NCBI GenBank assembly: GCA_014654115.1
Contig: JACWDO010000007.1
Coordinates: 1-48,587 of the forward strand
Reading direction: 5' to 3'
DNA: 48,587 nucleotides
Origin: Pelagibacterales bacterium SAG-MED17
Lineage (GTDB): Bacteria > Pseudomonadota > Alphaproteobacteria > Pelagibacterales > Pelagibacteraceae
Part shown: in pieces, positions 1 to 7,163 of the stretch
Position numbering within the stretch: position 1 is the first letter of the stretch
Layout of the letters: each line of letters begins with the position of its first letter
Notes under the pieces: generated by a model
Told to the model about the DNA's origin: nothing
The model's input: the letters and a program-made list of their open reading frames with translations, nothing else
The model's database searches: none
Program-made: the position numbers and the translations under genes

Positions 1-105
1 ATAATAATAAAATCAAAGTTCAAAAAAGTAATGAAACATTAATTAATCAGATTAACCATTTCTCACAAGTTGTTATGAAAAAAGAAAAACCTAAAGTAAC
101 TGGCC
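1..105. repeat. Inverted exact copy of 1499-1603
   Basis: Bases 1 to 105 read as the exact reverse complement of 1603 down to 1499, which lies inside the Gfo/Idh/MocA gene at 1419-2459. Identity stops after the palindrome GGCC (102-105): base 106 no longer matches the complement of 1498. The copy carries about 35 codons of that oxidoreductase's C-terminal region in a different frame from the UxaA-family gene that follows, so no fusion protein results. It interrupts the dehydratase gene and looks like a chimeric join rather than a functional repeat. Confidence 0.95.
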
Positions 106-513
106 AAAGGTGGAAAATCAGTTTTAAATGACGTTTTGTTATATTCTGAACCAATAAAAGAAAGAGGATTTAATTTCATGGACTCACCAGGATATGACCC
201 TGTATCTGTTACAGGTCAGGTAGCTTCAGGTGCTAATGTTATATGCTTTACAACCGGAAGAGGCTCATGCTTTGGGTGCAAGCCTGTTCCAAGTTTAAAA
301 TTATCAACAAATACAGAAATGTTTAAAAGAATGGAAGAAGATATGGATATTAATTGTGGTTATATTGCAGATGGATCTAAAACTATTGAGGATGTTGGTG
401 AAGAAATTTTGAATTTAATTATTGATACCGCTTCAGGTAAAAAATCAAAAAGTGAAATTAATGGCTACGGTGACGAGGAATTTAATCCTTGGCAAGTAGG
501 CGTTGTAATGTAA
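103..513 (+). CDS. UxaA-family (altronate/galactarate-type) dehydratase, 3' fragment
   Basis: This is the C-terminal part of a UxaA/GarD-family sugar-acid dehydratase, an enzyme family that removes water from altronate, galactarate or related aldonates. The reading frame starts at the chimeric junction with AKGGKSVLNDVLLYSEP, continues through MDSPGYDP and a GRGSCFGCKPVPS segment, and ends in FNPWQVGVVM, the usual family C-terminus. Only about 136 of roughly 500 residues remain. The 5' part is replaced by the inverted copy at 1-105, so no genuine start codon is present; the TTG at 136 is internal. The exact substrate cannot be decided from the fragment. A DMT permease starts 28 bases downstream on the same strand. 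Confidence 0.85.
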   Translation, partial: AKGGKSVLNDVLLYSEPIKERGFNFMDSPGYDPVSVTGQVASGANVICFTTGRGSCFGCKPVPSLKLSTNTEMFKRMEEDMDINCGYIADGSKTIEDVGEEILNLIIDTASGKKSKSEINGYGDEEFNPWQVGVVM

Positions 514-541
514 TTTTTTGATAAATTTTTAACAAATTATC

Positions 542-1426
542 ATGTCTAAAAATCAAAATGCTTCATTAATTAAAGTTATTTTTCTATCTGCTTCAGGTTT
601 TTTTTTGTTTGTGTGCATGGACTCGACAGCAAAATATTTAGGTGGCGTGATGCCAGTTACACAAGTTGTATGGGGAAGATTTTTTTTTCATTTTTTTGCA
701 ATTTGTATATATTTTTTAATATTCAAGCCAAAGCTTAATTTAAAAAGAAACTTCAAGATTCAAATTATTAGATCCTTATTAATGGTGTGTGCAACTTTCT
801 TCATGTTTAATTCTTTGCAGAGATTTGATTTAGTAGATATTTATGTTGTATTTTTTAGCGCTCCATTAATTGTATCTTTATTATCAGCATATTTCTTAAA
901 AGATTTTTTATCCCCCAAAGGTTTAGTTTTGATGCTTTTAAGTTTTGCGTCAATTATTTATGCTTTAGGACCAAGTATGAAAATTATATCTCTTGAATTA
1001 ATATTTCCAATTGTTCCTCCATTATGTTGGGCCTTTTATCAATTTTTTACAAAACTTATTTCTGGAAATAACGAGCCTTTCTCTGCAGTTTTTTATACTG
1101 CTGTTACTGGGGCTTTGATATTTACTATCTATATTTCATTCAATTGGGTGCAAATAGAAAATAATATTTATTGGATTGGTTTGGTTGCTATGGGTATCTT
1201 TGGATTCATAAGCCATTTCATAATTATTTATGCAATCCAATTATCAAATTTATCTTTCGTAACCAACTTTCAATACTCGCAACTTTTATGGTCAACAATA
1301 ATTAATTTTTTAATTTTTGGAGTTCCAGCAGACATTAGTAAAATAATAGGTCTTATAGGAATTATAATTTTTGGTGTTTTGTTTATAAGAGTTGAGGGTT
1401 CCAAAAAATTAAAAAAAATTAATTAA
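542..1426 (+). CDS. EamA/DMT-superfamily permease
   Basis: A 294-residue integral membrane protein with about ten hydrophobic segments in two EamA-like halves, the usual size and layout of drug/metabolite transporter family permeases in the inner membrane. The first segment (FLSASGFFLFVCMDSTAKYL) and the GRFFFHFFAI segment fit the family's conserved N-terminal repeat. It follows the UxaA-family fragment on the same strand and may export or import a related metabolite, but DMT substrates cannot be read from sequence. The ATG at 542 lies 28 bases after the previous stop. Its 3' end overlaps the convergent oxidoreductase by 8 bases. Confidence 0.8.
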   Translation: MSKNQNASLIKVIFLSASGFFLFVCMDSTAKYLGGVMPVTQVVWGRFFFHFFAICIYFLIFKPKLNLKRNFKIQIIRSLLMVCATFFMFNSLQRFDLVDIYVVFFSAPLIVSLLSAYFLKDFLSPKGLVLMLLSFASIIYALGPSMKIISLELIFPIVPPLCWAFYQFFTKLISGNNEPFSAVFYTAVTGALIFTIYISFNWVQIENNIYWIGLVAMGIFGFISHFIIIYAIQLSNLSFVTNFQYSQLLWSTIINFLIFGVPADISKIIGLIGIIIFGVLFIRVEGSKKLKKIN

Positions 1427-2459
1427 TTTTTATTCTTTTTCCAGATTTAGAGCTTTTTTTTATTGCATCAAAAATGATTAGGGAATTTAAACCATCTAGG
1501 CCAGTTACTTTAGGTTTTTCTTTTTTCATAACAACTTGTGAGAAATGGTTAATCTGATTAATTAATGTTTCATTACTTTTTTGAACTTTGATTTTATTAT
1601 TATGAATTCTATTCCACCAACTTCTCTCTTTTTTATAGTACCAAAGCTTTAAATTTGGAAATTGAACAGAACCCTTGGTACCCCCAATAAAATAAGAGGA
1701 TTGGTCAGTTATTGGATAAGCAGGATTTTCACCAGCAGTTAATTCATAGCTCCATGGTGAGGTTACTGTGTCAGATATATTTAAGGTACATAAAGCACCA
1801 GATTTAAAAAATAAATTCACTGAAGCTGTATCTTCAACTTTAAATTTTCTTATATTATTTGACTTAAACGCTTGAACATACTTTACAGGACCAAGTAAAT
1901 AACAAATCATATCAATGTCATGAACTAAATTAATTCCTAAAGGGCCTCCACCCTCATTAATTCTCCATTTTTCATGAAAATATTTTTTATGTTTGTAAAA
2001 CCAACACAAAACGTTTGCAGAAACAATTTGACCAAGTTTTTTGCTTTCTATTATTTTTTTTATATTATTAATAATTGAGTTATGACGTCTATGATAACCT
2101 ATCAACAGTGAAGTTTTATTTGAATTTGCACTAGTAATAATTTTCTTTGCGGATTTAATATTATCTGAAATTGGTTTCTCCAACAAAACAGGTATTTTTG
2201 ATTTTAAAAATTGTATTGTATCAGTTTCATGTAAAATGTTAGGAGTAGCGATTATTACAGCATCAGGCTTATCTTTTTCTAATAATATTTTGATATTTTT
2301 GTATAATGGTACTTTGAATTTTTTTGATAACTCCATCCCCTTTTTTTTTATTTCAACAATTGAATGAAGAGATGAGAACTTTGATTTTTTTATAGCCTTA
2401 ATGTGCTGTAAGCCCATTAAACCAATTCCAACGACTGATATTTTTACTTTTTTATTCAC
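1419..2459 (-). CDS. Gfo/Idh/MocA-family NAD(P)-dependent oxidoreductase
   Basis: A complete 346-residue cytoplasmic oxidoreductase. The N-terminus has a Rossmann dinucleotide-binding motif (VVGIGLMGLQH), followed by the family EKP motif (VLLEKPIS, about residue 95) whose lysine takes part in catalysis. A GGGPLGINLVHDIDM segment supplies the C-terminal substrate-binding helix with the conserved D and H. Members oxidise sugars, inositols or sugar acids. It lies 11 bases downstream of the SDR gene and after the ABC ATPase remnant on the minus strand, which suggests a sugar-catabolism operon. Substrate is unknown. Bases 1499-1603 of the gene occur again, inverted, at the left edge of the window. 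Confidence 0.85.
   Translation of the reverse strand: MNKKVKISVVGIGLMGLQHIKAIKKSKFSSLHSIVEIKKKGMELSKKFKVPLYKNIKILLEKDKPDAVIIATPNILHETDTIQFLKSKIPVLLEKPISDNIKSAKKIITSANSNKTSLLIGYHRRHNSIINNIKKIIESKKLGQIVSANVLCWFYKHKKYFHEKWRINEGGGPLGINLVHDIDMICYLLGPVKYVQAFKSNNIRKFKVEDTASVNLFFKSGALCTLNISDTVTSPWSYELTAGENPAYPITDQSSYFIGGTKGSVQFPNLKLWYYKKERSWWNRIHNNKIKVQKSNETLINQINHFSQVVMKKEKPKVTGLDGLNSLIIFDAIKKSSKSGKRIKIN
1499..1603. repeat. Parent copy of the inverted duplicate at 1-105
   Basis: This 105-base stretch of the Gfo/Idh/MocA gene is exactly repeated in inverted orientation at 1-105. Because it sits in an uninterrupted gene with matching flanks, it is the original copy and the left-edge copy is the displaced one. 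Confidence 0.93.
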
Positions 2460-2470
2460 AAAAGTAGATC

Positions 2471-3232
2471 TTAGGTTATGCCAGCATCTATAATAAAGTT
2501 TTGTTTAGTACATCCTGATGATACATCTGAAGAAAGATGTACAACTAAACTAGCTACATCAGCCGGTGTCAGCTGTCTTTTCAAGCATTGTTTATCAAGT
2601 ATAAACTTTTTATATTTTGGAGTTAACCAGTGCTTTATTTGTCTCTCTGTTGCAATTGATCCTGGTGTAACTGAATTACATCTAATATTAAATTTACCAA
2701 ACTCTCTTGCAAAAGATCTTGTCAAACCAATTACCGCTGACTTTGCGGTTTCATAAGCAACTTTATCACCTTCACCTAACATCCATGAAACTGAGCTCAA
2801 ATTAACTATTGCTCCACCTTTATTTTTAATCATTCCTTTTAAAACTGCTTTAATAGTAAAGAAAAAATGTTTTAAATTAACGTCCATTCTATTATTCCAA
2901 TATTTTTCATCTACTTGATCGGTAGAATGTCTGTCATCATTTGCTGCATTATTAATAAGAATATCAATTGGACCTTTAGATTTAATAATATTTTTTATAG
3001 TACCTTCCAATTTCTTAATGTTGATTAGATTACATTCAATAAAATTGGGTGTTTTAAGACCCTTTTTTTTTAAATCTTTAATTAGTTTATTTGAGTCCTT
3101 TTTATTTATATCTACGAAATAAACTTCACACTCTTGTTCACAAAAATGTTCGACTATTGAGGCACCTATTCCTGAACCACCACCTGTGATAAAAACTTTT
3201 TTGTTTTTTAAATCAAAATATTTTACTTTCAT
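2471..3232 (-). CDS. SDR-family oxidoreductase
   Basis: A 253-residue classical short-chain dehydrogenase/reductase. The N-terminus carries the cofactor motif (FITGGGSGIGASI, about residue 15), then DILINNAAND (NNAG-like), NLSSVSW with the catalytic serine, and YETAKSA with the catalytic Tyr-xxx-Lys. The C-terminus ends in the common FIIDAGIT. Enzymes of this type oxidise or reduce sugar or polyol carbonyls with NAD(P). The start codon directly abuts the TAA of the ABC ATPase remnant (ATTTAAATG), and the Gfo/Idh/MocA gene follows 11 bases later, so the three are probably co-transcribed. The specific substrate is unresolved. Confidence 0.85.
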   Translation of the reverse strand: MKVKYFDLKNKKVFITGGGSGIGASIVEHFCEQECEVYFVDINKKDSNKLIKDLKKKGLKTPNFIECNLINIKKLEGTIKNIIKSKGPIDILINNAANDDRHSTDQVDEKYWNNRMDVNLKHFFFTIKAVLKGMIKNKGGAIVNLSSVSWMLGEGDKVAYETAKSAVIGLTRSFAREFGKFNIRCNSVTPGSIATERQIKHWLTPKYKKFILDKQCLKRQLTPADVASLVVHLSSDVSSGCTKQNFIIDAGIT

Positions 3233-4010
3233 TTAAATCCTCTCTTCTGTTTTAGCATCAAATAACGAAATTTGCGTTAAATCAAAAAATAATTTTGTAT
3301 TTTTTGATAGCTCAATTTTTATTGTTGAAGGAAATTTTGCTAATATCTCTTGATTTTCATAATCAAACGTCATTATCTGTTCATGACCTATATACTCGCT
3401 TAAGTCTGCCTTTAAAGTTATCTCAAAATCACTTTCATTAGATTTTTTAAAGAATACATGTTCTGGTCTAATTCCAAAAAAAAACTTCTTTATTATCCAA
3501 TTTAGATTTTTCTTTGAAATCATATCCATTTATTGGAATTTCAATATTAGATCCATTTGCAATAAATGAAATTTTATTTGAACTTTCTTTTAGCTTTCCG
3601 TTAATCAAATTCATTGAAGGTGAGCCTATGAAATCTGCAACAAAAGTGTTGCTGGGTTTATTGTAAATATTTTCTGGCGTATCATTCTGCTGAATTACAC
3701 CATGATTCATGATTGCAATATTTGTGCCTAAACTCATAGCTTCTGTTTGATCGTGAGTAACATAGACTACTGTCGTTTTAAGTTGTTGATGGAGTTTTTT
3801 AATTTCTCGTCTCATCTCTACTCTTAATTTTGCATCTAGATTAGATAAAGGTTCATCAAATAAAAATATTCTTGGTTCTCTCACAAGCGCTCTACCAATT
3901 GCAACCCTCTGTCTTTGCCCTCCTGATAACTGTGAGGGCTTTCTCTCTAATAAAGCGTCTACTTGTAGAAATTTTGATACCTTTTCTAATTGCTCTTCTA
4001 TTTTTTCCTT
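3233..4010 (-). pseudogene. Sugar-type ABC transporter ATPase (MalK/UgpC-like), 5'-truncated and frameshifted
   Basis: Two reading frames together give the C-terminal 258 or so residues of a carbohydrate ABC ATPase that is normally about 360 long. Visible in order are the signature [15 protein letters not shown], Walker [13 protein letters not shown], the H-loop [11 protein letters not shown], and a C-terminal regulatory/TOBE domain beginning GIRPEH. The N-terminal 110 or so residues with Walker A and the Q-loop are missing: the frame meets a stop at 4011-4013 where the sequence becomes lptD. A run of nine A (3476-3484) contains one base too many; eight would restore VFFGIRPEH. Total length (778 nt) is one more than a multiple of three, as a single insertion predicts. 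It lies immediately upstream of the SDR and oxidoreductase genes. Confidence 0.85.
3476..3484. other. Nine-base A homopolymer causing a frameshift
   Basis: On the coding (minus) strand this is a T9 run in the ABC ATPase. With eight T the protein reads [11 protein letters not shown], the expected start of the TOBE region. With nine the frame ends at WN-stop. A sequencing or assembly length error, polymerase slippage, or a real mutation would all look the same here. Confidence 0.75.
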
Positions 4011-4885
4011 TTAACTGTTGGATCAGGATGATTAAAATAAGGTAAATAAAATAACTTTTTTTCAAAAACTTTAAACCAAGATTTTTCGTATTCAAATAAT
4101 TTTTTAATCTTATTGTGTGTAAATATTTCGCTTTGTAATTCCCAGGCTCTACAACTTTTATTTTCTTTATTGCATGTGCTAAAGATAGTTTTATAAATTT
4201 TAGTATTTTCATTATTTGATACAATACTTGATCCCTTAAGAACTGGATCATTGTTTTCATTACCAAAGTAATTATCTACAAAATCAACTTTGACTTCTTT
4301 TCCAGCAACTTCATTATTTTTTAAATTTAATTTAGAATTTTCAAGAAAATATTTATTATCGTTTTGGTCTTTTATTAATATTTTTTTTGATGATACAACA
4401 TCATTCAAAGTATTAAATATTAAACCTTCGTTGAATAAAAGCTTATTATTATCTTTATCATCTATTTCTGTGACATCCTCACTTGATATAATATTAAGAT
4501 TTCTATCAAATGAAATATTTGAGGATTTAATATTATATTTTTTTTCAATTTCCAAAAATGTTTTACTTTGAGAAAAAACTTTATTTGTCAACTCATTGTA
4601 AATCATTTTTTGGCTCTTAATAATGATTTTATTATCTTTATCAATATATTGTACATTATCAAAAATTATCAATTCTGAATTAATCTTGTCATAAATAAAT
4701 TTATCGCCAATAATTTTTAAACTCTTTAAAGGAATTGTTACCACACCCTCTGTGGCATAAATCATATTACCTTCCTCTTCAATTTTTAAATTTTTTGAAT
4801 CAAAAAAAACTGTTTCAGCATTTATATTTGAGTTAAAACATATAAAAATTAATATTAAAATTGTTTTTATAAATTTAATTTTCAT
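3998..4885 (-). CDS. lptD: LptD N-terminal fragment (LPS-assembly protein), 3'-truncated
   Basis: LptD is the outer-membrane translocon that places lipopolysaccharide on the cell surface. The 295 residues here are only its beginning: a signal peptide ([20 protein letters not shown]), an OstA/LptA-like beta-jellyroll domain, then the start of the beta-barrel region with [14 protein letters not shown] (two cysteines) and the family hallmark [14 protein letters not shown]. Directly after that motif the sequence switches to KK-stop and continues as an ABC ATPase. Normal LptD proteins run well beyond 650 residues, so the barrel is missing. The ATG overlaps the end of lptG (CTAAATGAAAAT), giving the conserved order lptF-lptG-lptD. 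As lptD is normally essential, this truncation is suspect. Confidence 0.88.
4005..4012. other. Chimeric junction between lptD and an ABC ATPase gene
   Basis: To the right, the minus strand encodes LptD up to HPDPTVKR. To the left, it encodes an ABC ATPase from [11 protein letters not shown] onward. The crossover lies in the A/G-rich sequence TTAAAAGGAAAAAA read on the minus strand, so a few bases could belong to either parent. Both genes are on the same strand and both are cut inside conserved regions. Confidence 0.85.
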
Positions 4886-7108: not shown

Positions 7109-7163
7109 TGAAATTATTGTTTTTAATAAATATACAACATTATCTAATAAAAATTTCAAAAAA

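Follow-up and report, generated by a model that had tools for sequence, protein, structure and literature searches.

Results

The window, our term for the whole stretch of DNA analyzed here (48,587 bases), is contig C67 of an assembly (G000) that comprises 905,425 bases in 72 contigs, with a completeness of 61.2% and a contamination value of 0.26. Thirty-eight of these contigs, all shorter than 3 kb, read N, leaving 34 that are readable. Near the left end of the window, the minus strand carries an LptD reading frame of 295 amino acids (3998–4885) that is normal up to the motif HPDPTVKR, then enters the middle of a MalK-type ATPase and stops. As judged from its translation and from alignment with relatives, this frame consists of the N-terminal part of LptD (approximately 293 of 808 residues), the junction codons and the stop. 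Beyond the join, also on the minus strand, ORFs and alignment with relatives identify a C-terminal remnant of malK (3233–4011) corresponding to approximately residues 105–364 of 364, in which Walker A is absent. The preliminary description of this DNA had likewise read the locus as an LptD that is normal to HPDPTVKR and a MalK-like ATPase without its Walker A half, both broken at one point. Our translation and alignment agree and place the join at 4004–4011; in a 96% complete relative, G004, the homologs are complete proteins of 808 (LptD) and 364 (MalK) amino acids. In the malK remnant, the frame additionally shifts by one base at a T/A run (~3480–3500), which gives two ORFs (3468–3884 and 3233–3529); the cause may be either a true mutation or a homopolymer error.

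The named loci closest to the LptD fragment, in a search from which the window's own record may have been excluded, are those of the uncultured Pelagibacteraceae AG-337-D19 (63% identity) and AG-910-O15 (80% identity). By this sequence likeness, the window is that of a SAR11-type alphaproteobacterium. The AG- names presumably denote single-cell genomes; the title of one of the two carries the label MAG.

Below position ~4011 the sequence is that of malK. Of ten malK stretches that we aligned (two of which, L033 and L068, represent the same G004 locus; an eleventh, L038, failed to align), nine match the window at 4011 and none at 4012, with L035 departing already at 4011. Approached from the other side, all seven lptD relatives match from ~4004/4005 upwards. 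The run common to both parents is therefore at most 8 nt (4004–4011). It may be only 4 nt (4008–4011), because six of the seven lptD relatives have another base at 4007, a silent position of its codon. These lengths, like that at the other join described below, are estimates from relatives' sequences, as the way in which lptD and uxaA natively continue in this cell is unseen. The same breakpoint emerged independently from a search of 399 genomes.

A second abnormal join lies at the left edge. Positions 1–105 are an exact reverse-complement copy (105 nt, 100%) of 1499–1603, the end of a Gfo/Idh/MocA gene, forming a fold-back whose arms are 1.4 kb apart. In comparison with G004, positions 1–114 match contig C2 at 117941–118053 on the plus strand and positions 103–4014 match it on the minus strand, such that, on the G004 map, the contig leads outward via uxaA and then turns back into the Gfo/Idh/MocA gene. 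The turn falls at ~103–105, where the uxaA and Gfo parents have 2–3 nt in common. An inverted join at this edge, and hence a 3.9-kb segment bounded by two abnormal joins, had been proposed from the first reading of the sequence; both are real, with the joins at 103–105 and 4004–4011.

In G004, both genes are intact and occupy two separate places: lptD sits between genes for an LptG-type permease and a SurA-like protein, and malK lies behind genes for a sugar-binding protein and two permeases (all names from reading of translations). The segment at 103–4014, minus strand, which contains the uxaA 3′ part, a DMT transporter, Gfo/Idh/MocA, an SDR and the malK 3′ part, is collinear with G004:C2 119441–115531 (84.4% over 3913 columns). 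The remainder, 4005–48587 on the plus strand, is a native stretch with intact LptF/LptG-type permease genes beside lptD, collinear with G004:C2 50125–95517 at 81–91%, with 0.8 kb of extra sequence in G004 near the window's right end. Thus, the two portions of the window correspond to opposite strands 65 kb apart in G004, and by G004 order the malK segment would natively sit ~20 kb past the window's right end. When G004, L034 and L033 are compared, both sides of the join prove to be ordinary pieces of native SAR11 loci, lptF-lptG-lptD-surA-pdxA-ksgA on one side and malE-malF-malG-malK-SDR-Gfo on the other (gene names again from reading of translations). Unlike in the window, these two loci are never joined to each other in the matches listed, the window's own excepted.

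That statement rests on a search with 201 bases around the join against 399 genomes of the genus, of which 150, the window's own included, gave a match. Among the matches listed, none besides the window's own spans the join: all others end by query position 112 or start at position 94 or later, and the best of them scores 145 bits, compared with 363 bits for the window. Matches were sorted by E-value with weaker rows lying beyond those listed, and a spanning match would be expected near the top. The occurrence of the same junction in independent genomes, which the preliminary description had named, together with even coverage by spanning long reads, as the sign of a true deletion, was therefore not found among the matches listed for the 399 genomes. 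Eight of the genomes listed (G004, G137, G192, G257, G307, G362, G370 and G378) carry both loci on one contig, in all eight inverted relative to the window and 54–80 kb apart, with six of the eight at 65–66 kb.

Because the two parts are oppositely oriented in relatives, a true deletion, the genuine event first envisaged, does not fit; a genuine rearrangement could only be a ~65-kb inversion. Flipping G004:C2 50.1–115.5 kb indeed yields exactly the join seen in the window, and the assembly shows no intact gene containing a missing half of lptD or malK, as expected if the breakpoints of a real chromosomal inversion lay inside the two genes. However, the reciprocal join (lptD barrel to malK N terminus) is likewise unseen, with neither half found in an assembly that is 61% complete and in which 38 contigs read N. 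The same join is also absent from the matches listed for the 399 genomes, the window's own excepted, and the inversion leaves unexplained both the fold-back at 1–105 and the five others at contig ends described below. lptD is normally essential, and a match to its barrel is present in 14 of 16 relatives that are at least 90% complete; LpxC and LptF/G, moreover, are intact. We thus consider a real inversion very unlikely, and the full scenario of a cell that carried a true 65-kb inversion cutting lptD and the sugar ABC ATPase gene, and that survived at least temporarily with a truncated LptD, slightly less probable again.

If the 4-kb segment is displaced, is it foreign? The preliminary description suggested that 1–4010 does not belong where it lies. 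This holds for position, as the segment is inverted and 65 kb away in G004, but not for a foreign source. The GC content of the segment (0.288, versus 0.276 for the rest of the window) and its identity to the same relative (84% to G004, comparable to the 81–91% of the remaining window) rule out foreign DNA. In addition, contig C7 (13,235 bases) ends 14 bases past its match to L033 position 15187, and this terminus lies, by G004 order, ~2.7 kb from the uxaA side of the segment, so the segment's native neighborhood seems to be present in the assembly. By these sequence comparisons, the segment is DNA of the same organism in the wrong place.

Neither intact parent locus was found in the window's assembly; their existence is inferred from relatives. 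Following the suggestion that the LptD barrel and the N-terminal part of the ATPase be sought in the rest of the assembly, we used the G004 LptD barrel as a protein query, which gave no match in the window's genome (61% complete, 38 of 72 contigs reading N). Nor did this assembly show the sugar permeases, the part of the locus around the MalK N terminus or that around SurA; a malK-like stretch on contig C8 at 70% was taken as a paralog. Given the 61% completeness and the 38 of 72 contigs (<3 kb) that read N and may have escaped the searches, the absence of these halves is expected. The absence of the surA-pdxA-ksgA-gmk side together with the barrel also fits a coverage gap.

Could the lineage instead have lost canonical LptD and retained a truncated protein? 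The truncated gene is the only lptD visible in the assembly. Against this stand the incompleteness of that assembly and the coverage gap just described, together with the relatives: the barrel query is matched in 31 of the 41 genomes of the relatives set (the window's own among the 41), with two of the 16 relatives that are at least 90% complete lacking a match, and in 16 of 24 other genomes of the same genus, with eight lacking one. We therefore regard loss of LptD as extremely unlikely. The related proposal that canonical LPS export has been lost is similarly unsupported, since an LpxC open frame is present on contig C56 of the same assembly and, besides the barrel matches in 14 of 16 good relatives, the two LptF/LptG-type permease genes next to lptD in the window are intact. 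We conclude that the join is no evidence for lptD loss. The Pfam model of the outer-membrane barrel domain, PF04453, was set aside as a test of barrel absence in favor of the G004 barrel query. The LptD fragment shows no Pfam family, and the full-length G004 homolog reached 32 bits against the PF04453 cut-off of 22.4 in one search and showed no family in another; as PF04453 matches only 36 of 151 genomes of the genus, and 8 of 22 good ones, it performs poorly within the genus, and its negative result in the window's own genome says little.

Inverted repeats of the kind found at the left edge of the window recur elsewhere in the assembly. Of the 68 ends that the 34 readable contigs provide, six (among them the start of the window) carry a terminal fold-back that reaches the last base; the survey covered mostly 4 kb per end, and more widely spaced fold-backs would escape it. 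The other five lie at the end of C5 (46 nt, 95.7%), the end of C12 (43 nt, 97.7%), the start of C15 (78 nt, 100%), the end of C34 (107 nt, 98.1%) and the start of C71 (62 nt, 100%); C15 contains an extra internal 21-nt inverted pair. With the same settings, no fold-backs were detected in 14 stretches of relatives totaling 210,773 bases, which are mostly contig interiors and not contig ends.

A further false join occurs in contig C6 (L170; G000:C6; 17,385 bases), which is made circular by an overlap of 121 bases (1–121/17265–17385). Comparison with relatives indicates that its outer ends are joined in direct orientation over ~6 nt at 7112–7134. It encodes cytochrome b, cytochrome c1 and pth (ORF reading), and since relatives carry the same DNA as ordinary chromosome, a plasmid or phage is ruled out. 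On these comparisons, C6 is a piece of chromosome that was closed into a false circle. Separately, at ~8096–8117 of L170 there is a variable region, where G004 and G378 have ~7.5 kb of extra DNA relative to the window's genome and G370.

Discussion

We consider it highly probable that the join between lptD and malK is a chimera formed during amplification, most likely by phi29 multiple displacement amplification (MDA) of a single cell and less likely in library making or assembly. Our reasons for regarding the main join as an artefact are that it is absent from the other matches listed, that it lies beside a fold-back and that the assembly contains other false joins. An artificial join was one of the options raised at the outset, and it is strongly favored by parents that lie inverted and 65 kb apart, by the 4–8 nt that they share, by the lack of any other spanning match among those listed and by the fold-backs seen at six of the 68 contig ends examined. 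Thus, lptD is truncated in this contig, but the break very probably does not exist in the living cell, which should have intact lptD and malK genes, ~65 kb apart as in relatives.

In such a chimera, a freed 3′ end of one locus would anneal over a few nucleotides to the other locus and be extended. A second template switch, over the 2–3 nt at 103–105, would then fold the same molecule back upon itself. That MDA was used on the DNA of this window is itself inferred. How well does the window resemble known MDA products? According to Lasken and Stockwell (2007; PMC1855051), 406 of 475 MDA chimeras are inverted and most have complementarity of 2–21 nt. The window resembles these in having inverted segments and short shared stretches (4–8 nt and 2–3 nt), as well as in the fold-backs at other contig ends of its assembly, whose arms are 0.45–3.7 kb apart. 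As expected after MDA, the assembly contains further chimeras, evident at the 6 of 68 contig ends (the window's own among them) and in the false circle of C6.

One feature is atypical. In PMC1855051, inversion is favored only at separations of <10 kb; above 10 kb, inverted chimeras number 69 versus 58 direct ones, with complementarity in 34.8% of those inverted. The fold-back at 1–105, with arms 1.4 kb apart, fits the <10-kb pattern, whereas the two loci brought together at the main join are ~65 kb apart in G004. As orientation is close to even at such distances in these data, the inversion at the main join does not by itself identify MDA; the argument for this join leans more on the accompanying fold-backs. 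By analogy, the main join would belong to the long-range, intermolecular kind of MDA chimera.

A library chimera or mis-assembly that has nothing to do with MDA, such as might arise in a metagenome bin, is an overlapping explanation that leads to the same verdict of artefact. The retention of contigs as short as 1,020 bases in the assembly would suit it, and orientation at 65 kb does not favor MDA. However, shared stretches of 2–8 nt are probably too short for joins made by assembler k-mers, and fold-backs that run precisely to the contig terminus, as at 6 of 68 ends, better suit amplification chimeras. We therefore regard an origin apart from MDA as unlikely, and return to amplification as the preferred source of the join.

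Joins of this type make an essential gene appear broken and could feed false claims of gene loss and synteny. Fold-backs at contig ends offer a cheap, read-free marker with which assemblies of this kind could be flagged. A further source (PMC11247762) treats chimerism as contamination. In the present assembly, the low contamination value of 0.26 gave no warning of the chimera, presumably since the two pieces come from one and the same organism.
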